From contig NC_069135.1 of NCBI RefSeq assembly GCF_026914265.1, positions 3,055,001-3,119,000 on the forward strand: a stretch of DNA of 64,000 nt, written 5' to 3'. Made by a program: the position numbers and the translations under genes. Of this stretch, positions 19,124 through 64,000 are shown piece by piece. The stretch comes from Mya arenaria (taxonomy: Eukaryota > Mollusca > Bivalvia > Myida > Myidae). The notes beneath the pieces were generated by a model. That model made no database searches, was not told where the DNA came from, and saw only the letters and a list, made by a program, of their open reading frames with translations. The first letter of the stretch is position 1. Each line of letters opens with the position of its first letter.

Positions 19124-21208
19124 TTTATTAATTCAAATTAAAACAGTGTACATGCTTTATATACAACTTAACAGTAAAACAAGTAACAACAGATGGCAGA
19201 TTAGCATATTTCCATGATTGCTTACCGGGGTAGCACATTCAACGGTCCGAATTACCGCCCACTTACTGGGAGTTATACATGTTCATTTAAGGAATCTGTC
19301 ACTTCAAAGAACTACATGGTAACTCTAAGAACGTATAAAATGCACATACAATACAGAGGAAATATAATTTAAGACTGTTAATCTGTGGGGATGTATCACT
19401 TTGAGTTGCTTCCATAAAGTCAGTATCACACAGCATAGGTAGAGCGGGATGTAACTTTACCCATCCAGCAAGAAATGATACAGTCGCACAGATCAACCGA
19501 CTTCATAAATTTCTTTTATTTCACAGTATGTTTTTAAAAAAATGAGATTATAATTTTCTTAAAAGAAGCATCTAAATTGACAACAAAAATCATATTTGAT
19601 TTGCGTAGGTCAAAAACTTGCAGCTTCAATAGAATGTCTTACTCATGTGTTAGTCCGATGAAATCATTGGTGGATAAGATAACAACACTGATCACTGACA
19701 TTACTACAGAGATCAACTACTGCAAACAACTATTTAGAACTATTGACCTTTATAAAGCCATTTAGTTCCTGTTTGGTAAAAACAATGAGGCAGAAACTAA
19801 AACAGAAGTGCAAGCATTGAGATTCTACAAAATGGTAATTATCACAAGCCACATTAAACTAGACAAACCTCACACACTTAACAATGACAAATACACTGTT
19901 TGACACTAACAGTCAATGGTGTCTGTTTTACAATGCATAATCAACAAAGGGTGCATAACTGTTACAAATCACAATTACACATGTAGGTCAGCAGAGTCTT
20001 AGTAGGATATGATGAGGGTATTATAACCAAACATGTAACTATAGGGGTGTATACAATAACATTTAAGGACTGATCACATTTACACAGTAGGGCATGCAAG
20101 CATATTCCATGAAGCCTGCCTGCGATTCTTAGTCATTTGCTCGCTTGCCCTACTGCATTCATACAGCAAGGAAAAATACCTTCAATACTTAAAATCAAAT
20201 AAATTTACATTATAAATCATTATTCATTATGACTAAAAACAAGCAGCATCTCCTGCAATGGAGTATTTGTTCTGAAATAAATGTAACCAACAACATACGT
20301 TTGTATAAATGAATAGCTGATTTTTGTTACAACGATTAAATGACGTCGCGCTTATCCAATCGGAGTGCAATATTGAAACAAACATAACTCTTTGACTGTC
20401 ATACATTACATATGTCAAGTTTCATCTAAACAAAGGACTCGAGGAGGCGAATAAAAATATATGTAAGTAACTGCAACTTGCTTGATTGGCAACCAATCCT
20501 TCATATAAAATACAGTGTGAATTAAAACATGAGTGCTGTATAAAAGAACCTTTTTTTATATATTCATTCAAAGAAGGGACATAACTTTACTCAAAGATAT
20601 TGAGTTATGGGCCTACATGAACATATGCATATTGTCCATACATTCTTATACCTGTTGGATATCTTGAAAGTTGTTGTTTTTAATTACCGGTATGGCCATT
20701 TTTTTCCCACAATTACAACAATGTCACAAAGATAATCACAAAGCCCTACCTTTTTCTTAGAAAAACATATGAGCTATAAACATAAATTTCATATACGATC
20801 CAGACTGTACATTGGAAATAAGTATAAATTTATAATGCTGATTGAGAACTACCCAGTATTTACTATTAATAAGGTCCCCTTAAATTTGATGACAAAAATA
20901 AATCAAAAGGAAATATGTAAAAGGTATGTTGAGCACAAGCACATATTTTATGGTAAAATAGCACTTATTTACTGCATCAAGAAACATTGCAGTTTCATAA
21001 ATCCACACTGTTTTCGTGGGTAGGAAGGCATTTCTTAGTCTCAATGAAGCCTAGACATTAACGAAGAGTACATAATATTTGTAAAAGTTCATTTGCTTAC
21101 TCTTAGGGTAAAAGGACAGGTATTTTTTGACGAGTCAGACTGGCCACTGCGTGCAAATAATTAACTAAAGATGGCCTGAAGTGCACAATGTCAAGGTCAC
21201 ATGAGAGT
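19124..21208 (-). other. probable long 3' UTR of the FAM185A-like gene
   Basis: Downstream of the FAM185A-like stop there is 2.1 kb of AT-rich sequence without reading frames. On the minus strand an AATAAA signal lies at 19129-19124, followed by A/T-rich sequence. I infer this is the transcript end; nearer, weaker signals cannot be excluded. Confidence 0.4.
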
Positions 21209-50560: not shown

Positions 50561-50593
50561 GCGACTCCCTTCAACCCCGTGTTACACTGAGCG

Positions 50594-53500
50594 ATGCTAC
50601 GCTTCCTCTTCCGACGGAGATTCTTCAAGCGTCTGGTGGCGTCCTTGGCGCTACTCTACATTACCGCCGTTTGCATGTCATCTCTGTTTGTATTCTCGCT
50701 CACGGAAAACCCCGACGGCTACCGGAACTCTATTCCGGATATACGTGGTCGCACCTCATTGCGCTCAGTTGACAAATGTGCCCATCCGAAACTTGGAACC
50801 GATAGGATTTACACATATGACCTACCAACCATTACAAACTATGGGTTGGTAAACAATAATGGCAATCCGCGTTTCAAGGAATACAAAATTCCAGTAATAG
50901 ATATTTCAGAGGCATACAAATCTAATCTAGACGAACTGTCTGTTTATGTGATTCCATTTTCTCACGTGGATCCCGGCTACGGCATGACCATGGAGCAGTA
51001 TTTTGCATCTAAATCGCGGCACACATTAGATAACATGGTACGTAAGCTAGAAGAGTATCCTGATCTCACGTTCCAGTGGGCAGAAACGGTGTTCCTCGAG
51101 CGATGGTGGCGGCAGGCCGACAACGGAACCCGCGCCAAGATGAAGCGGCTAGCGGAAGAAGGGCGGTTCGAGGTGGTACTTGGCGGCTGGGTTATGCCAG
51201 ACGAGGCTGTCACGCACTTTGAGGCTGTGGTCGACCAGCTGATCGAGGGGCATACCTGGCTCAAAAAGCACCTGCACGTGTCGCCTCGGAACGCCTGGAT
51301 TAATGACCCGTTCGGTTACTCGAGCACCATGCCGTATCTGTGGCGTCAGGCAGGCATGCGTAATATGGTCATACTGAGAATTCACCAAGCCATAAAGGCC
51401 ACACTGATGCGGAAGCGCGCACTTGAGTTTAACTGGAAACCTATGTGGGAAATGGGTGGTGACACTTATGGTGACATGCTTTGCCATTTGATGTCCTACC
51501 GCGGGTACTGGATCGGAGACGTCTGTGGGCCTAACAACCAACATATATGTAGAGAGTATGCGTTCATGCACGAAAACCCGCGGGACAAGGTTGTCTTTTT
51601 GTCCAATGAAAACATTGCCGAAAGAGCCCGCATCTTGTACGAACAGTACAGAATTACGGCCGAACTTTACCGGAAACATACCTCAACGGAACATCCGCAA
51701 GGGGAACAGCTGTTTTTGCCTATGTTTCTCGGAGAAGACTTTTCGTATGTTACAGCGAAAGATTACGACTTAATATATAAGAATTATAAAATGTTATTTG
51801 ACTATATGAATAAAAAGAGTGAATGGAAGATAAATATCAAGTTTGGCACCATCAATGATTATTTTACTGACATTAAGAAGTACCAAGCCAGTGTTGGCTA
51901 CAGTTTTCCTAATTTGTCAGGTGATTTTTTTCCGTACTCGGACTATCAAAACGATTACTGGACTGGCTACTACTCCACACGACCATTTTTAAAGCAGCTA
52001 TCCAGGGAATTACAGAGTACTCTTAAGTTAGCAGACATGTTGCACACTTACGCCAAGGCAAGGGTTAAAACAAACGATGAATACACGAACCTGAAAGAAA
52101 TTGACGAGCTTCTTCAAACTTCCCGCCGCCACCTTGGCGTGTTCCAGCACCACGACGGTATCACGGGAACATCTCTGCAGTTCGTCATGGACAACTTCCA
52201 GAAAGAGCTCAGCGAGGCGTTGCAGAAATGTAAAACGGCGATGAAAATGATTACCTCTCAGTTATTATCAAGAGGGAGTATGCCAGTTGCAAGTGTACGC
52301 GATGTGCTGGCCAGAGAAGGATCTAAAACCGCGACAACATACACTGTGATGACGGTGCCACCGGGTGGTGCGTTTCTCACCGTCGCCAACTCATTGCCTC
52401 GCATGCGGACGGAGGTGGTAACGTTCCACTGTAGCGAAGACAAAGTGAAGGTATCCGAAGGAGGACGGACCCTGCCGCTGCAGGTACGCGAGGTGGGCAG
52501 CTCCAGGTACGAGGTCTCTTTTGTGGCACAACTTCCGCCGGCCAGCGTGCAATATTATAACGTGACATTGATGATGGAGGTTGGGGCAAATGTTGCACAG
52601 AAATCCAGTCCAAGTGAACATGGTGGTGAAATTTTGATAGAAAACGACTTCTTGAAAGTGCAGTTTAACAATGAATCAGGATTTATAAGTCAAATTATTG
52701 GGAAACATTTAAATAATTTGAAGTTAAACATTCAAAGTGATGTATTAGCGTACACCGCTAAAAGAAGTGGCGCTTATATATTTGCTCCCGATGGCGAGGC
52801 CAAACAATTTCTTAGAGGTAAACCAAAAGTTACACTTACAACAGGGAACTTATATTCTGAAGTCGAAGTGGTTTACTCTTCGGTATTTATCATTACAACA
52901 AGACTGTATCATTTGCCAGGAAGCAAGGCGATGGGCGTGTTTATTGACACAAAATTAGATGTAAAAAGTAACACTCAGTCAATGAATCAAGAAGTAATTT
53001 TACGTCTGAAAACTGATATGAAAACCAATAACACGATGTTCACAGATCAGAACGGGTTTCAGCTGATGGGGCGGCGCACGTACACTGATCGTGCCACGGA
53101 GGAGAACTTCTACCCAATCACAACAATGGCTATTATTCAGGACAGCTCGAGTCGGCTCACGCTTAACACCGCCCAGCCGCACGGCGCCGCGAGTCTGAAA
53201 GACGGGTGGCTCGAAGTGATGCTGGACAGGTCCCTATCACGGGACGACGGGAAGGGGCTTGGGCAGGGGGTTAGTGATAACGTGGCCACCTCGGCACAAT
53301 TTGTCCTTCACCTGGAAAGCATGACTGGCGAGGGCATTCCTGAGACCAAGTACACATATCCCTCCATGGATAGCTTGCTTATAAACGAACAGTTGAACGA
53401 ACCAGTGTACAAGTTGTTTGTTCCTTCCGTTGGGGTGAAGTATATTGCAAACGTTCAGGGAATAGAGGACTCCTTGCCATGTGACACGTCCATAACGGTG

Positions 53501-53752
53501 ATGCGACAGTCGAACGTTGGCACGAGCATGGTGCTCCACCGCTGGGCCACACATTGCCGCTTTCCGACTGTGTCCGAGTGTCGACGCTACCAAGGGGACG
53601 TTACTCTTCGCAATCTATTTAGGAGCGTTGCGAAGGTATCTGCCGTCGAGACGTCCTTGACACATTCGGAACACTTTGGACCAGTGTCCCGAACCGACAT
53701 CCTGGCGCCCACACCAATGCAGCTTAGAACGTTCCTCATTCTTCTTTCATAA
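50594..53752 (+). CDS. Golgi-type alpha-mannosidase II (GH38), single coding exon
   Basis: Glycoside hydrolase family 38 enzyme of 1052 residues. The family trims two mannoses from GlcNAc-Man5-GlcNAc2 during N-glycan maturation in the medial Golgi. The layout is that of a type II membrane protein: a short basic cytoplasmic tail (residues 1-13), a signal-anchor (14-36), a stem, then the catalytic domain. Zinc and catalytic residues by comparison with Drosophila Golgi mannosidase II are His124 and Asp126 (SHVDPGYG), the nucleophile Asp238 (NDPFGYSSTMPYL) and His520 (QHHDGITGT). WVMPDEA (residues 199-205) is conserved. The usual HSHNDPGW reads FSHVDPGYG here, so this is a divergent paralogue and the substrate may differ. 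It is about 90 residues shorter than human MAN2A1. The entire coding sequence is one exon, unlike vertebrate MAN2A genes. The 3' end faces the receptor gene. Confidence 0.92.
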   Translation: MLRFLFRRRFFKRLVASLALLYITAVCMSSLFVFSLTENPDGYRNSIPDIRGRTSLRSVDKCAHPKLGTDRIYTYDLPTITNYGLVNNNGNPRFKEYKIPVIDISEAYKSNLDELSVYVIPFSHVDPGYGMTMEQYFASKSRHTLDNMVRKLEEYPDLTFQWAETVFLERWWRQADNGTRAKMKRLAEEGRFEVVLGGWVMPDEAVTHFEAVVDQLIEGHTWLKKHLHVSPRNAWINDPFGYSSTMPYLWRQAGMRNMVILRIHQAIKATLMRKRALEFNWKPMWEMGGDTYGDMLCHLMSYRGYWIGDVCGPNNQHICREYAFMHENPRDKVVFLSNENIAERARILYEQYRITAELYRKHTSTEHPQGEQLFLPMFLGEDFSYVTAKDYDLIYKNYKMLFDYMNKKSEWKINIKFGTINDYFTDIKKYQASVGYSFPNLSGDFFPYSDYQNDYWTGYYSTRPFLKQLSRELQSTLKLADMLHTYAKARVKTNDEYTNLKEIDELLQTSRRHLGVFQHHDGITGTSLQFVMDNFQKELSEALQKCKTAMKMITSQLLSRGSMPVASVRDVLAREGSKTATTYTVMTVPPGGAFLTVANSLPRMRTEVVTFHCSEDKVKVSEGGRTLPLQVREVGSSRYEVSFVAQLPPASVQYYNVTLMMEVGANVAQKSSPSEHGGEILIENDFLKVQFNNESGFISQIIGKHLNNLKLNIQSDVLAYTAKRSGAYIFAPDGEAKQFLRGKPKVTLTTGNLYSEVEVVYSSVFIITTRLYHLPGSKAMGVFIDTKLDVKSNTQSMNQEVILRLKTDMKTNNTMFTDQNGFQLMGRRTYTDRATEENFYPITTMAIIQDSSSRLTLNTAQPHGAASLKDGWLEVMLDRSLSRDDGKGLGQGVSDNVATSAQFVLHLESMTGEGIPETKYTYPSMDSLLINEQLNEPVYKLFVPSVGVKYIANVQGIEDSLPCDTSITVMRQSNVGTSMVLHRWATHCRFPTVSECRRYQGDVTLRNLFRSVAKVSAVETSLTHSEHFGPVSRTDILAPTPMQLRTFLILLS

Positions 53753-54602: not shown

Positions 54603-57600
54603 TCATATCATGAAGACCCCGTCTTCCTCGATCCCGTGCTGGTACGGACTGTGTACGGAGTTAATGATATCCGGAACATGGGCGCGCGTTCCGCTTTTGT
54701 CTGACTTCCCTGTGAACTGATTGTCTGAACCGTGACATTTCATGTCTACTGGTACATGTCTTTTGTTATATGGGAAGTTTATATTTATTATTTCAAGGTC
54801 ATTAGGTGAGGTTATTACAGTACTGGAGGATGATGTAATCCGTTTATTGCTTGTTGGACCTACACCAGACGGGGCATCCCCAGTCCTCTCTGTGTTTTGA
54901 GATTCCCCTTCCTCCGCGGCGTCCTCCTCATCGCTGCTCCCTCCCTGAAGGTCCCGTGCACTCAGGTACTGTATTTGGGATTCTTGATTCCTAGGGTCCG
55001 ACCTCTCCTCCACCAGCGTGTCTGGCGAATCAGATAAGTCGTCGTCACTCACCGCATTGTGTCGAGTTTGAACGGCCCTTTTAAGTTGACTGTCATTTGG
55101 GTATATGTAGTGAGGGTCGTCTTTATCCCAGCTTGGGCACCGGAAGCGAGGGGAAGAATCGGCACGTGACCGGTAGACAGGCATCGTCGTACTCCCCATT
55201 GGAGCTGAACGCGGTGCTCCAGGAGACTGTTTATATTTGCCCGGCTTTCCCACCAAATCCATCGTCTTATACTTCTGTAAGGCAGGTGTTTTACTGATTT
55301 TGTGTAGACGGGACACAGGCGCTGACGCCACTGAACTTGGTCGTTCCATGGAACTTAAGGCATGAAGACGTAGCAAGTCGCTGTCGGACAGATGGCTTTG
55401 ACCGCGGATGTCCGCGTACTGGACCTGGCTATCTGCCGACGCCGAGCCAATCACTGACCCAGACTGGCTGTGCTGTCGGCCGGTTAAACTGTCCATGTCG
55501 AAGGCTAGATTGCCAAACGTTCGAGTGACGGACGATGGCGAATCATATACATCCAGCTCTTCATCTGAAAATAGATATTCAACCTAGTTTCCACGCTAAA
55601 AGCAATCGCTCATAGTTCCCGTGTTAAATGCACTCTCTCACAGTTCCCATGTTCACAACAAATTTTGTCAAACTTTGTTATTTTAATTTCCTTTATAAAC
55701 AGACACCAAACCGCAGACAGACGTTTGAAAGAATTTTGTTATGCCAAGCCTTAAAGAATTCCATTTTCGATAGCGTCGCTTACGCTTTTCAGGAAAATAG
55801 AGCATTTCGTCACATTTTAATACATATAACCAATCGAGCTCTAACTGTTGATGACCTTTTACCACTGTCACAAATACATCGCTCATATTTATTCGAAAAA
55901 ATGTGAAGGAGTGACTGTAGCCCGTAGCCAGTAATATCAGTTTATCATTGTCCTTAAATATCGTTTACTTATTAAACCGTTTTTAGGCTGTAGGCCGCTA
56001 GGCCTGCAGACTTTTATAACCGTATCTCGGAAATCGCATCGGCAGATCGACATAACATTTTTAACTTTTGGCGAATTAATGCGCGCACGGGCGTATCAAC
56101 GCCCGCGCGGTTAGAATTGCGGTGGTTAACGACCTAATTTTCATTAACATTTAGATCGAAAATACCTAGTTAGCAATCTGCTCTAATAGCTACGGACTGC
56201 ATTCTGCATATTAATTAGCTTGCTAAAAGTAGCGCTGTAATGAGTGTTCAATCTATGTTATGCGGTTAATATAGTTCGAATAAGATGCCTTTTGCATATA
56301 ATATAATATAATTATTTTATTATCGGCGAGTTACAGAACGCAGTATTTAAAGCAGATTCTGCAAATAGTTTAATAATGAAGCGTACTGAATCAAATAAAT
56401 ACAAGTATGTATTTTGTATACCTTTAGATTTTGCTGCGGCCGAGGACCGATAATATCTACATAATATCTACATGTACATTGCAGTTAAGAATAGAATCTG
56501 GGTCATCGCATTCGGACAGGTTTATTCCCCGGAGATAAACTCTGAGCTTAATCCCGGAAAAATATGGATCGCATTATGATGCAATTAAATGCCAAGTATG
56601 CGCAAAATATCAAACAATTATGTGAAAATAGAATTATAATACTTCATTTAATCCTAAATCAGTTTTTTGGTGAGTGTAGTTTATTCATAAGTATATTTTC
56701 TATGTTTTAAATTGCCTAAATCGGCTATTACTTGACATTTTTTTATTGAGATTGTTAGTTCTTACTTGTGTTTGTAAAATATGTGTCGCATAAAACCATT
56801 CTCTTGTGTAAGTACATACTAACAACCTTTTAACCATAACTAAATGAATATTATACACTTTCCCCATTCAAATCAAATCGCGTAAAGCGTGGACAGGCTA
56901 TCGACCTGCTACAATTTGTGGCATAGTCACGTAATGACGAATGAAACGGAAAGTATGTGAATATTTCCCTGTTTGTCTCAGTAATTTCAGTCCAATATCT
57001 TGAGCATGAAGCATAATGCATATGCATATTTAAAAAAATAACTGATGTAAACCTGATCATTTTGTCCACGAGTGGCATATGTTGAGGGCATTATTAAAAT
57101 ACATGTACATCAAACATACAGGGAATTGATACTTTGTGGGTGATATGATCCAGAGGTATTTGGCAATGTAGAAAGAAGCCTTAAACACAAACCTAATTAA
57201 TATTTCCAATGCATTTTGCTGGGATGCATTTGGTTTAGCTGGCATGCCCTGGTAGAAAATTAAATACGCCAAAGTCAAGTGTGAAGTGTAGAGTAGATTT
57301 TACTAAAAACTCCTAAATGCTTTATCCGTGGCAGTGCATTGTTTATGAAACCAAAGCTCCAAATAAGGTCTTATATGATATTGAGAATTACTCCGATACC
57401 TTATAAGTAACTATTTGGCGTATTCCACATGTCAAGTGACTTATACTTCATGATCTCATTGAGAATCAACATTAAACTCTAAAAAAAATCGAGAAGGAAA
57501 TTTTGAGCGGGCATATAATATCTTTAGATGTTTATGTTAATAATTATATTTTACAATTACATGGCTATACTCACGAAACGTTGCAGGCCGAAAGCCATTC

Positions 57601-60600
57601 AACGCTTTAAGCGCTTTGATTTTATTAAGCTTCTGATTCTGACGAAAGACTCGTCACCATGGCAGACAAGATAAATCAGATCGGCAAACGGTTAATTGAA
57701 CTACAAAAAAAAAAATGACAGCGCCAATGTACCTGAGATTGCTTTGGTGGGGGCCGGCGGGCGGTAGACCCGGCACAGGAAGGCAGAAATAAGTACCAGG
57801 ATGATGGCGAACACAGCCAGCAGGGCGCCCAGGATCACCACGATCACCTCCATCCTGCAGGAACAAAACCATCATATTTAAAAAGGCCGTCAGGTTTATA
57901 CCATGCGTATAGGGTTCGACTGTATGTTGTTTTTTTACGGAAAAGAAAATACAACATGCAGAATACTGGTATGTCACGTACGTTTGACTACTTTGCACAG
58001 GCATTGGTGTGGGCGGCGCGGAGGTCGATGTTACGGTGCCGGCAGTGGTCACGGTCGAGTTGATCGGCACGACACATATCATGGGGTCACACTCACTAGT
58101 GCTCAGGTAATTGGCGCAGCGGGTGTAGTAGTAAAACTCCTCTTTCGGGTCCTGCAGGGACACATTCTTTCGATGGTTGTTGTAAAACTTCGGGTTTGAT
58201 GTGAGGGTTAACCGTCCATCCGTCCCAAAGCTGCCGATCTGCGGTAGGAATGGGTTTACCAATGAAATAAGATTTTAAGAACCCTGAGACCACAATTGCA
58301 AACTTATGGCATAGTAAAATAACATATATTTTTAGTTTTAACATCCTTTTATATGGATAAAACGCATTCGCTTGCATTTGCAATTGCTTTATATTATTTA
58401 CAACATTGAAATACGTGTAAGCGTACTTCTTTGTAGAATGCACGTCCATCTGCGTCCAGCTGGATGTTGTGAATGGTGAACCCTATATTTCCGTTTCCGC
58501 TCTCATCAAACAAGCGCTTGCCGCTGATGCTCTGACGCCGGATGCTGTTCACCAGGTCGGTCGGGGAAGTGCGGGCCGCCTGGTAGCAGGGGATGCTGCG
58601 GATTTGGCGTTCAGCACAGAATTGTTTGTAACCGGAAGCCACCGCCTGTACGGCGAGGCCCGTGTGAACACCTCTCTGGTCCTTGACCAAATTGCCGACA
58701 AGCGAATCGTTCAAGTATGTAGTCATCGTCTCTTTTTCACACCTAGCGCCATTACGAAACCTGTCTTTTTCAAATGATGAAATCAAATTGCAATAATTAA
58801 TGTTCTCGAAATAGTTTGGGATCCATTTATTAAAATATGTTTGAGAAATGTTTAAACCAGCTAGGTACTGTCTGTATGAAGTACTTTGGAACTCCTTGGC
58901 TGATACAGTGAACACAAGGGCACCAAGGCTGGCCTTTTCTACTTCCGCCGCTACCAGCTCGCGGTTCGTGCCCCATCCGTCACTAGCTATAAATATAAGC
59001 GGCTTGCCTTGGTTATCGTTGTCTTTAAAGGTAAGAAGTAGTCGACGCGCCAACGTGTCTATTCCAAAATACAACACGACACGTACTTGCTGGGTGAAAA
59101 GCTTGTTAATGACTTTATCTAACTGTGACGTTGTCATATCTTGTGAAATGGGAATTGGGTCTCTAATGCAAATATTTTTAAGTTTAGCCTCATTAAGCAA
59201 TCCTTCTTTCCCGTTTATACCATACGCATCATCAATATATACAAGACCGACGTGGTTGACCTCTAGTTGCACCACCAGCTGTATCATGCCATGAATCTGT
59301 ACTGGATCGCTAGGCACGGTTCGCAGGAAGTACGGGTATCGGATACGGTTGTCTAACTCCATAGAAGACGCACTGTAAGATACTAGCGGAAGGTTTGCCG
59401 CGTTTACAATGTCCCCGATAAGTATCGTTACGGGCGACGACAGAGATCCTACAACCGCAACTACGCGGTCCGCGTCTACCACGTGACCAGTTGTGAAATC
59501 CGTCAAAATCAAACGTTTGTCTAGAAAATTGAAAAGAAAGCTGGTTGTGTTGATTCCGTTGTAACAATCATCAATAGCTAACGCACCGAAATCAATGCCC
59601 GTTGTGTTACGCATTTCTTGCACTGAATGCATAAACGCTGAAACTGTGATGATGTCATTCGTCTCGTTTCGGAGTAACCCGCAGGTGAATGTGGAGTAAC
59701 CATAGTTACGGATGGTAAAGAGGCCGACAATGAGCGCCTCCTCCCCGTGCAAGTACGAGAACCGACCCTCGTCCACGTGCACGCATTTCTCGCAATGTTT
59801 ACGGCAGGCAGAGACAGGCAGCGTCCTGGGGTCGCCTAGCGTGAGCGTACAATGGTCCGCATCCGCATCAGCCTCCCAGACATGTGTGTATATTTCCTGT
59901 AAATTATATGTAAACGCTTAAACTACGTGAAGTGAGAGCAGCATGCCACTACAGACTGGAATTGTAAGACTAAATACTACGACAAAGGTGCCATAGTTAA
60001 TTCTATGTTTTGTTTCAAGTTTGAACACTTTAGATATGAGTAAATATGAAATATTAATAACGATTTTTTGTATTGTATGTATAAGTATTTCCAATCAAAA
60101 ACCATAGCCCATTTCGATTATTATTTAAATTAAATATGTTAAAAATGAAAATTACCTCGACACCATTAGCTTTATCATAGGTACTCATCGATAAGCGAAG
60201 AAAGGAATAATTCTGAAATCCGTTTTTGTTGAAACTTATTTCCTTGGAAGCGTATGGATAAAACTCGAGGTCCTTGAAGAATTCGGTGACATTGACCGTG
60301 TTTGACAGAATGGTCTCAGTAAGAGATTCAACAATGGAAGAGTTTGTCGCCAAGCATTGTTTTATATCAAGTTCCCCGCATGACACGTGAAGAGTGTCGT
60401 TCGCCGCTAGCGCGCCGGCAAGGACGGCGTCAAGCACGTGCTTTGGTTCCAATTCCAGCAAGTGATTGGATGGCAACTGAGAAACCAGATCGGAGATCGG
60501 GCTAAGCTCGAAACCATTACGTATATTTTGAAAATAGGAATAAAAATGCCAGTTTTGGTTCGTTTTGTTGCCGTAGAACGGATGGTCCACGTGAACAACA

Positions 60601-62396
60601 GAGACTTCTCCATGTTCTCGATGAAATTTGGATTTAATGCTCTCGTGTATGGCTGACGTCACTAACCACGTGATACCTGCCGAGGGGCTCGTTGAGTTTA
60701 ACATTGCAATGAATGTCTCAGAGTTCCCGAAATATACCACCGTAAGAGTTGTATCTACTGCCTCTTTTCGAGCGAAAGAGTATATCCGGTCCAACGCCTC
60801 ATGTCCAGCAGCCACGCTCATGGTCAAACAAACACTTGCTGACCGTGCAAGCGCCTGGAAACGTGCAGATGCCGACATACCGTACTCATCCGTACTGTGC
60901 ACTTCCGCCACAAAATTCCAGTCAGCGTTTTTCAACAACGACAGTATTGCCTGAATATTGAAAAGGTTATTATAGTCTACTACAATAAAGGTCCAGTTTA
61001 ATAATTAAAATAATAATAATAAGGAATTGTCATTTTTCCGTCAGCGTCCCTTAGATATGCTCAGTATTCAGAACTGGACACTTGCGCAGTTGCATCTTCA
61101 TGTAGAAAGCGAATGTTCTTGAATGTGTATATATACAATGATCAATGATAGTATTGTCTTTCTACAAATATTCTAATTACATCTTAGGATTATCAAATTC
61201 TCATTCCACATGTAATTGTTCATAAGGGCATATACGTGCCTTGAGTTCTTGCTCCATTGGGACAACTGTATGGATCAATATTGGGTCGGAGACCGACTGT
61301 ATAGCGGCCGGAAGAGGACGGAACACAGGCATACCCCGAACCAGCCGACCAGCCAGTCGACCGCCCTCTACGTCTACCAGCACCAGCGTCCCTGGTAAAA
61401 AACATGAAGCAACAATTATGCACCTTAAGCTTTCGAATAGTTCGTTGAACAAAATGAACTATATACTTACAGACAATCAAAACACCCAACACCTTTTATC
61501 CAACGTCATATCGTAGCTGTCGTACTGTTGTTTTTTCCTTGTGTAATTATTTCTCAAGTGTGGTCAGATATAATAATAATAATAATAAACAAAAACAAAA
61601 TGCATTTGGTAAATCATAAAACATCTGCATCGCACTTATACATTCCTATACAAGAACTTTTGATGTTTTGAATATAATTATTCTATACAAATCATGTTTA
61701 ATTAACATAACAATTATTTCAATATACATACATACAATATATATGTTAAGCCTCATATCTGATCAATAGAGATTAGAGTCTTGACAAAACCAAAAGTTGT
61801 TAAACATAAAAACATATAGCTCAGGGAACTGCATTTATGAAGCTCGTTTTTACTTTCACATATTTAACATGATAATATAGATAATAAATAATTACATTCA
61901 GTATTTGTGAAGGTTAGTTTTCCGGTTTTACATTGACACCTTGCTTTTTGTAGCATCTGCTGTGGGTACTTGTGTATCCCCAAAAAAGCTCATCTAGCAT
62001 TACTATGTTTGAGTTTATGCTGAAATTCATTTCATGCCTTTTCCTGCCTAATACATTTAGAAATTGGAGAAGTGTAGTAAACAAAGAATCGACAGAAAAT
62101 TGTGACCGTTTCTCTGAGAAACTTACAAGTCAAGTATATTTAAAAAAACAACAACATTAAACAGACAACGGGAGATGCTGCTCGGGATTATGTCCATTAA
62201 CCTAAAAACGATTGGACGTTCATGGCATCGGAATATCGGCGAAATATTGCTCGTCTTAGCTTTGTCTGTGAATGGGACTTCTTTTTACCTATAGTGTTTG
62301 TCCGTGCATCCGGCTGGCATGTGGTCGATGGGAATCCTGGGACCAGTAGGGCGGCAATGTGGGCCTCGCTGCTGCACGTGTCAAATATCTCGTAAC
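54603..62396 (-). CDS. tandem Venus-flytrap, single-pass receptor (5' end beyond window)
   Basis: Exons on the minus strand: 62396-62289, 61391-61240, 60950-60156, 59896-58427, 58238-57982, 57854-57733 and 55564-54603. Together they give one frame of 1287 residues to the stop. Residues 1-351 are the later part of a first ANF_receptor/class C GPCR-type flytrap (GYEIFDTCS, then WNFVAEVHSTDEYG). Residues 352-400 are a Cys-containing linker. Residues 405-860 form a second, complete flytrap (IVGLFTIRNYG, VVGSLSSP, YSASS, RTVPSD, ASDGWG). A Thr/Ser/Pro-rich stalk, one membrane span (930-954) and a 333-residue Ser/acidic-rich tail ending GVFMI (class II PDZ-ligand pattern) follow. No 7TM, kinase, cyclase or NCD3G domain is present. 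I infer a cell-surface small-molecule or peptide receptor or co-receptor; the class is not one I recognise. The intron 61239-60951 appears to be GC-AG. The N terminus and signal peptide lie beyond 64000. Confidence 0.85.
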
Positions 62397-64000
62397 CTGG
62401 AAAATACAACATGATTTTGACAAAACGTGCAATGCATCTCGTAACCTGGAACAGCTCACATCACGTGGACAACAGGTGCCACACACCTTGTAAGCTTGAA
62501 CAGCTCACATCACATGGACAACGCGTGCCATACACATTGTAACATTGAACAGCTCACCTTACGTGGACAACACATGCCATACACATTTTAACACGGAACA
62601 ACTCACATCACATGGACGGCACGTGCCATACACATTGTAACATTGAACAGCTCACATCACGTGGACAACACGTGCCATACACATTGTAACATTGAACAGC
62701 TCACATCACGTGGACAACACGTGCCATACACATTGTAACATTGAACAGCTCACACCACGTGGACAGCACGTGCCATAAACATTGTAACATTGAACAGCTC
62801 ACATCACATGGACAACACGTGCCATACACATTGTAACATTGAACAGCTCACATCACGTGGACAACACGTGCCATACACATTGTAACATTGAACAAATCAC
62901 ATCACGTGGACAACACATGCCATACACATTGTAACATTGAACAGCTCAAATCACGTGGACAACTAGCGCCATACACATTTTAACCTGGAACAGCTCAAAC
63001 CACGTGGACATCAAGGGCCATACACATTGTAACATTTAACACCTCACACCACATGGACAACAAGCGCAATACACATTGTAACCTGGAACAGCTCAACTCA
63101 CGTGGACAACAAGCGCAATACACATTGTAACCTGGAACAAATCACACCACGTGGACAACAAGCGTCATACACAGTGTAACCCGGAACAGCTCACACCACA
63201 TGGACAACAAGCGCCATACACATTGTAACATTGAACTGCTCACACCACATGGACAACAAGTGCCATACACATTGTAACATGGAACAGCTCACACCACGTG
63301 GACAACAAGCGCCATACATATTTTAACATGGAACAGCTCAAATCACGTGGACAACAAGTGCCATACACATTGTAACATGGAACAGCTCACACCACATTGG
63401 ACAACAAGCGCCATACACATTGCAACATGGAATAGCTCACATCACGTGGACAACAAGCGCCATACACATTGTAACCTGGAACAGCTCACATCACGTGAAC
63501 AACACATGTCATACACAGTGTAACCTGGAACAGCTCACACCACATGGACAACAAGCGCCATACACAGTGTAACCTGGAACAGCTCACACCACATGGACAA
63601 CAAGCGTCATACACAGTGTGACCTGGAACAGCTCACACCACATGGACAACAAGCGCCATACACATTGTAACCTGGAACAGCTCACACCACATGGACAACA
63701 AGCGCCATACACATTGTAACTTGGAACAGCTCACACCACATGGACAACAAACACCATACACTTTATAACATTGAACAGCTCAAATCACGTGGAGAACACA
63801 TGCCATACACATTGTAACATTGAACAACTCACACCACGTGGACAACAAGCGCCATACACATTGAAACCTGGAACAGCTCACACCACATGGACAACAAGCG
63901 CCATACACATTGTAACATTGAACAGCTTACATCACGTGGACAACAAGCGCCATACACATTGTAGCATGGAACAGCTCACACCACGTACGTATACAACAAG
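62387..64000. repeat. 49-bp minisatellite in register with a receptor splice acceptor, runs off window
   Basis: At least 32 copies of a 49-base unit, for example CACGTGGACAACACGTGCCA, TACACATTGTAACATTGAAC, AGCTCACAT, continuing past the window edge. Variants AACCTGG/AACATTG/AACATGG are intermixed. The 14-mer ATCTCGTAACCTGG at 62387-62400 spans the acceptor of a receptor exon and recurs exactly 49 bases on, at 62436, so the splice site sits inside the first, diverged unit. Many units carry two CACGTG or CACATG hexamers. Confidence 0.95.

Follow-up and report, generated by a model that had tools for sequence, protein, structure and literature searches.

The bivalve Mya arenaria carries, in a 64,000-base stretch of its genome that we call the window (C14:3055001-3119000), most of a gene predicted to encode a receptor with two tandem Venus-flytrap ligand-binding domains (hereafter flytraps) on a single-pass chain. 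The predicted gene comprises eight exons on the minus strand, seven inside the window and the first past its edge. Its product of 1382 residues is laid out as a signal peptide, flytrap 1, a Cys linker, flytrap 2, a short stalk, one span and a 333-residue tail. Two flytraps, one membrane span and no effector domain is very probably the architecture of this predicted gene. The genome searched holds 1,216,080,610 bases in 18 contigs, and all genomic comparisons were made within it.

Exon 1 (C14:3122943-3122661) lies outside the window, 5.3 kb upstream of exon 2, and contributes the starting Met, a stretch resembling a signal peptide and the opening strands of flytrap 1, in a phase 1 that fits exon 2. 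The other seven exons, all likewise on the minus strand, are given here in window coordinates. Exon 2 (62289..62396) encodes the 'GYEIFDTCSS' segment of flytrap 1 and was placed by its AG/GT signals and phase (phase 1 in, phase 1 out). Exon 3 (61240..61391), within lobe 1 of flytrap 1, was placed by phase and splice sites and leaves in phase 0. Its donor, at 61239, is GC and not GT, as joining exon 4 in phase 0 requires. Exon 4 (60156..60950; phase 0/0) holds the remainder of both lobes, with Pfam ANF_receptor at 1.7e-8 on its open frame. The last strand of flytrap 1, a C-x3-C-x2-C linker and the whole of flytrap 2 then lie in the one open frame of exon 5 (58427..59896; ANF_receptor, 4.1e-37). 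Exon 6 (57982..58238; phase 0 in, 2 out) adds the end strand of flytrap 2 ('IGSF') and a Cys/Ser/Thr stalk, exon 7 (57733..57854) a lone transmembrane helix and exon 8 (54603..55564) the cytoplasmic tail and stop codon. The intron phases are, in order, 1, 1, 0, 0, 0, 2 and 1, and a single frame is kept across all junctions. A simple splice chooser that was supplied with the start codon and the central part of every exon recovered both ends of six of the eight exons; for exons 5 and 6 it picked incorrect donors. In the product, a hydrophobic leader at about residues 6-33 is followed by flytrap 1, ending near residue 446, flytrap 2, ending near 936, and the span at about 1022-1049; 14 of the 15 N-x-S/T sites stand ahead of the span.

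An earlier prediction, made from the letters of the window and below called the original prediction, had set out seven exons at essentially these coordinates, and the splice signals, consistent phases and single frame agree with it. It was also right about the start and end of the gene within the window and about the length of the tail, and the further exon that it sought beyond the window edge is the exon 1 described here. The window part of intron 1 (62397..64000) is mostly a 49-bp tandem repeat that continues past the window. This repeat extends over about 5 kb, at about 62440-64000 (judged by eye inside the window) and over the first 3451 bases beyond the window end, and makes up much of the intron.

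Two consecutive flytraps in one product, as the original prediction had it, were recovered when the spliced protein was searched with Pfam, which gave ANF_receptor in two stretches (E 1.3e-45 overall). Peripla_BP_6 scored above its cut-off and CutC under its cut-off, and nothing besides these three appeared at E up to 1; in that range there was no NCD3G Cys-rich domain, only the C-x3-C-x2-C linker being present. The best Protein Data Bank (PDB) match of flytrap 2, in a phmmer search with exon 5, is mGluR4 (3e-29). Flytrap 1 is weaker, with ANF_receptor at 2e-8 in the product and PDB matches to mGluR3 and TAS1R3 at about 2e-7 to 3e-7. A local profile, built from 19 flytraps of the same genome and leaving out flytrap 1 of the window gene and of the paralog described below, detected flytrap 1 of the window gene as three colinear pieces (E 4e-20) and that of the paralog at E 1e-21, and matched none of five shuffled controls. 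We regard the predicted flytrap 1 as divergent but real.

After the signal peptide one hydrophobic span stands out (Kyte-Doolittle peak of 3.48 over 19 residues), in line with the claim of the original prediction that the chain has one span and no known effector domain. The tail is rich in Ser (15%), Asp and Pro. It gave no Pfam match above cut-off, either as an open reading frame (ORF) or within the spliced product, and in the genome at E up to 0.1 it matched only itself and a near-identical copy on C3. The Pfam scan of the product returned none of the ligand-gated channel families of ionotropic glutamate receptors. Nine of the 14 minus-strand ORFs of at least 50 residues at 53.9-58.3 kb likewise gave no Pfam match above cut-off, and no kinase family appeared in the scans of the product and of these nine ORFs, the only scans by which kinases were tested. 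None of the 59 genome matches listed for 7tm_3 is near the gene, the nearest listed on C14 being at 12.23 Mb, more than 9 Mb away; of the 138 matches listed for Guanylate_cyc, the one closest to the gene lies at C14:2.65 Mb, about 0.46 Mb away. These family searches scored the best 150 of 156 candidates (7tm_3) and the best 150 of 207 (Guanylate_cyc).

Short patterns in the span and tail were also considered. The tail of the window gene contains one sequence, VQYADI, resembling what we take to be an immunoreceptor tyrosine-based inhibitory motif (ITIM) and ends in VFMI, which fits what is presumably the PDZ-binding pattern, as does the C-terminus of the paralog, ISRV; these motifs carry no weight in our interpretation because the two tails do not align above shuffles. 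A basic Gi-activator motif in the manner of NPR-C, as we assume it to be defined, gave one short match and was judged unconvincing. The idea that the span derives from the first helix of a class C seven-transmembrane (7TM) domain, suggested by eye by a Y..KA..EL pattern, was rejected, since no class C receptor in PDB was matched at E up to 10. The best phmmer match in PDB to the span and its flanks (0.003, to a chain named P22) aligned to part of the tail, and Pfam found nothing in the span piece.

A diverged paralog shows this architecture again. The best tblastn match to flytrap 2, leaving aside the C3 copy, lies at C14:41497843-41499264 (32%, E 1e-61), and the gene there splices to a 1233-residue open frame encoding flytrap 1, linker, flytrap 2, a stalk and span that share a single exon, and a tail without a Pfam match. 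No first exon was found in the modelling of this region, at C14:41.50 Mb. The two genes are 30.6% identical across residues 464-937. Five of the six modelled paralog introns match window introns in place, judged by eye, and in phase; the paralog has one extra intron splitting flytrap 1 and lacks the stalk/span intron of the window gene. The stalk and span of the two genes align better than 499 of 500 shuffles, a comparison in which shuffling also disrupts the hydrophobic span. The predicted architecture and the stalk and span are thus kept between the two genes, and the tail is not. Two flytraps, a Cys linker, one span, an enzyme-free tail and shared introns, the features by which we propose a tandem-flytrap single-pass family, were found in both of the genes modelled, the window gene and that at C14:41.50 Mb.

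In a tree of 21 domains, flytrap 2 of the window gene and flytrap 2 of the paralog pair at 100/99. Three first domains (win_V1 of the window gene, par_V1 of the paralog and C4a_V1) join weakly, at 73/92 and on long branches, and when win_V1 is left out par_V1 shifts to the third domains of C4. The grouping of these three domains in our first tree was dropped, several of its C10, C7 and C5 rows being wrong open frames; the rebuilt tree uses other rows in their place and omits the second C17 row.

The gene region is also present, at about 99.2% identity, on C3. There, C3:82087-175000 forms a colinear copy of about 92 kb near the contig start, its blocks mostly 95-99% identical with some insertions; colinearity was examined over window positions 45 kb to 112 kb, in coordinates extended beyond the window, and in one 1-kb sample at window 20 kb. 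Exons 2-8 differ from the C3 copy at 14 of 3866 bases, 7 of the changes synonymous and 7 nonsynonymous, with no indel and no stop, while the introns between them show 25 differences in 3920 bases plus 22 indel columns. In exon 1 one base is changed, replacing Leu with Pro in the leader, again without an indel. All eight exons are therefore open in the C3 copy, with 7 synonymous and 8 nonsynonymous differences in total. Either a haplotype left unmerged or a segment duplicated recently may account for the copy.

Tandem flytraps also occur on C4, C5, C7 and C10. On the last three there are nine loci with an exon resembling flytrap 2, which are candidates for two-flytrap genes: C10:48.87, 48.89, 49.12 and 49.23 Mb, C7:21.61 and 21.64 Mb, and C5:5.74, 5.76 and 5.80 Mb. 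A profile trained on seven flytraps of this group, and on none of their upstream neighbours, found a flytrap exon upstream on the same strand at six of the nine loci at E<1e-4 and at one more at 0.008. It found none at the other two, one of which yielded an upstream exon only to a profile trained on a near copy. In neither of two single-flytrap controls, an mGluR-like gene and a C17 gene, was an upstream flytrap found in the roughly 1.3 kb of upstream sequence searched. Two of the C10 copies look broken, that at 49.23 Mb having stops and that at 49.12 Mb being split across two frames. No 7tm_3 or Guanylate_cyc domain is close to the C10, C7 or C5 loci among the listed matches, these genes not having been read as far as a span. 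A 76-residue C5 fragment once taken for a flytrap end gave no match to the local flytrap profile.

At C4:65.11-65.17 Mb, three 7tm_3 modules stand behind flytrap arrays. About five flytraps precede the first (C4:65114136-65127462) in a provisional model with three of 13 junctions unsettled and no start for its first flytrap; about five precede the second (C4:65142001-65153484), read exon by exon and unspliced; and at least one precedes the third, at C4:65172492. We consider the first two runs candidate G-protein-coupled receptors (GPCRs) with five tandem flytraps. The multi-flytrap 7TM genes of C4 share with the window gene tandem flytraps and a Cys linker of one kind, and several of their flytrap exons open with the end strand of the preceding flytrap, as exon 5 does in the window; they differ in having about five flytraps and a 7tm_3 domain. 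The motif C-x(3-5)-C-x(1-2)-C is present in 14 of 16 linkers or stalks, against a mean of 0.16 and a maximum of 3 in shuffles, and is absent from the stalk of the window gene and from the C5 linker. The 16 were chosen and read by eye, the C4 V4/V5 linker not among them, and the count is descriptive because the set was picked in this way.

Three rival explanations concern the gene model itself. Two adjacent genes might have been fused, one for a flytrap 1 protein and one for flytrap 2 with the span. The exon 4/5 junction is indeed known from sequence alone, and flytrap 1 is far more divergent than flytrap 2. However, the last strand of flytrap 1 and the linker form the beginning of exon 5, whose frame meets a stop seven codons further upstream. 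The first Met in that frame is residue 535, already within flytrap 2, and so a separate start for flytrap 2 is lacking at this place. The paralog repeats the order and the phase-0 junction, and the upstream flytrap exons at six of the C10, C7 and C5 loci point the same way. We consider a fusion very improbable, and the single gene of the original prediction held up when its two-gene alternative was tested by sequence. Equally improbable, in our view, is that effector exons were overlooked and that the gene codes for a class C GPCR, cyclase or kinase in truncated or alternatively spliced form. Flytrap 2 does belong to the mGluR type, such exons can lie far downstream and the family searches scored the best candidates only, yet the tail exon ends in a stop about 850 bases before a convergent gene on the opposite strand, no 7tm_3 or Guanylate_cyc is among the listed matches near the window gene or the paralog, and the span matches no class C receptor helix in PDB. 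The possibility raised in the original prediction, replacement of the span and tail exons by one coding for a 7TM, cyclase or kinase domain, found no candidate among those matches or in the ORFs scanned. Least probable of all is a decaying gene or an assembly artefact. A colinear copy of about 92 kb would indeed be expected if a segment had been duplicated recently or haplotypes had not been merged, but the eight exons are open in both copies and have accumulated no indels, against 22 indel columns in the introns. Because all eight exons are open on C3 and the architecture recurs in a diverged gene, we do not attribute it to chance.

Positions that bind amino acids in mGluR1, with the numbering and roles that we take them to have, were compared by alignment to an mGluR of the same genome. 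Flytrap 2 keeps four backbone-binding positions, Ser165, Asp208, Tyr236 and Asp318, and has Ser in place of Thr188. The corresponding residues in flytrap 2 of the paralog are Ser, Ser, Asp and Tyr, with Glu for the last, and flytrap 1 of the window gene retains one of the five, Tyr236. At the basic positions presumed to bind the side chain, flytrap 2 has Thr at Arg78 and Arg at Lys409, which points to an altered binding mode or to a ligand amino acid that is not glutamate. We think it somewhat likely that flytrap 2 would bind an amino acid; its ligand is probably not glutamate held in the manner of mGluRs. Flytrap 1 we expect to be structural or allosteric.

On balance, we favor reading the gene as one for a receptor or co-receptor that senses amino acids, crosses the membrane once, lacks an effector and would recruit partners through its tail. 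The protein would be a type I surface receptor of class-C-like origin with no effector of its own. Its membrane-proximal flytrap 2 would bind a free amino acid or similar alpha-amino ligand, and the distal, degenerate flytrap 1 would serve allosteric control or contact within a dimer. When flytrap 2 closes in a dimer, this closure could then be transmitted through the short stalk and the helix to the probably disordered, Ser-rich tail, which would recruit cytoplasmic partners; as an alternative output, the signal might pass sideways to a paired class C receptor subunit. The route across the membrane, whether partner recruitment, action beside a class C GPCR or ligand capture only, is something we can but infer, and signaling as a co-receptor or scaffold in particular is a plausible option that we put somewhat short of an even chance.

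Several observations weigh against this reading. The tails of the two genes have no convincing similarity (score 50, reached by 68 of 500 shuffles), which counts against one conserved recruitment function. The window gene and its C3 copy differ so little (7 synonymous changes, 8 not) that purifying selection is hardly tested by the comparison. Flytrap 1 is divergent, and its long branches make its place in the tree unstable. Ligand binding is deduced from residues alone, and of these flytrap 2 has Ala at the position of what we take to be Ser186. The backbone-binding positions are kept in many other aligned flytraps too, and for that reason we read them as retention and not as a special signature.

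Two other functions were weighed against an amino-acid-sensing receptor with a recruiting tail. NPR-C acts in clearance, and the clam protein could in the same manner be a decoy, scavenger or clearance receptor, or a shed ectodomain, by which ligand is removed or buffered and in which the tail serves trafficking only. The lack of an effector domain would suit such a role, as would tails that are alike in composition only between the two paralogs, and NPR-C itself, known to be a flytrap receptor with a single span, has a short tail of 37 residues (PMC3796523). The 333-residue tail of the clam product is far longer, though, and holds few classic endocytic signals (two of YxxPhi type, no NPxY and no dileucine), and we regard this role as rather unlikely. 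As GABA-B1 pairs with GABA-B2, so the clam protein might be an obligate subunit that joins a class C 7TM receptor in its own cell and gates it by way of flytrap contacts. The same genome does contain class C 7TM modules behind serial flytraps with a common linker motif, and most flytraps, class C receptors included, are described as dimerizing (PMC6027212); this proposal nevertheless seems unlikely, since the tree places flytrap 2 no nearer to the domains of the C4 arrays than to those of C10.

Among neighboring features, a long, uninterrupted open frame at 50591-53752 on the plus strand encodes a GH38 alpha-mannosidase-like protein with N-terminal, middle and C-terminal Pfam domains; it is convergent with the receptor gene, its 3' end lying about 850 bases past the receptor tail stop. 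Upstream of the receptor, about 9.3-14.7 kb beyond the window end on the plus strand, are exons that by eye resemble a short-chain dehydrogenase gene. The segment 20001-21000 contains, at about 20082-20460, an interspersed repeat with dozens of pieces of 70-76% identity across many chromosomes.

Compared with known systems, the clam gene shares with class C GPCRs (mGluR, CaSR, TAS1R) an mGluR-type flytrap, backbone-binding residues and a Cys linker directly after the flytrap, but those receptors have one flytrap and a 7TM domain, whereas the clam product has two flytraps, no 7TM and no NCD3G reported by Pfam. Receptor guanylate cyclases are defined by the Guanylate_cyc domain, of which the product has none. 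With NPR-C, whose extracellular domain is a single flytrap, it has in common an extracellular domain, one span and the absence of an enzyme domain; it differs in its two flytraps, including the mGluR-like flytrap 2, and in a tail of 333 residues as against 37 (PMC3796523). Venus kinase receptors (PMC3703292, PMC4026697) are invertebrate, single-span and built on a class-C-like flytrap, with one flytrap and a tyrosine kinase where the clam gene has two flytraps and no kinase. SmGBP, a truncated mGluR of Schistosoma (PMC3206071), is an invertebrate mGluR-type flytrap without 7TM, but has one flytrap and no Cys-rich linker or C-terminal domain. The bacterial kinase BvgS (PMC4352136) and sensor kinases of its type carry tandem flytraps outside the membrane together with a kinase domain, a likeness by description in which the flytrap family was not compared.

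The original prediction did not recognize two flytraps on one single-pass chain as a known arrangement. That does not hold in general, since receptor adenylate cyclases of Trypanosoma have two flytraps on one span (PMC6027212) together with a cyclase catalytic domain that the clam product lacks. For animals it stands as far as the literature searched goes: among the titles and abstract openings listed by literal matching in open-licence PubMed Central, preprints excluded, there was no animal receptor with at least two flytraps per chain. As far as their available parts go, a recent survey gives animal class C ectodomains as ANF with NCD3G, ANF alone, or Cache with EGF, and mentions no tandem flytraps (PMC12716839); an earlier one dropped mGluRs missing two or more of the seven helices (PMC6307864); and mGluRs are described with ANF and NCD3G domains only (PMC6267866). 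New with respect to the literature searched are the animal, effector-less form and its membership of a wider tandem-flytrap group. Unnamed predicted mollusc proteins of such a shape may well exist in databases.

More speculatively, and with considerable doubt, this lineage might have built receptors by stringing class-C flytraps together, two with a single span and no effector in one case and about five with a 7TM domain in another. The single-pass forms would then make up an animal receptor class of their own. In these receptors the proximal flytrap would bind ligand and be tuned by the degenerate distal one, and they would serve as co-receptors for the multi-flytrap GPCRs. If the tandem flytraps are real and form a sizeable class in molluscs, it would become possible to test both how flytrap dimers signal without a 7TM domain and what is gained from several binding domains per chain.

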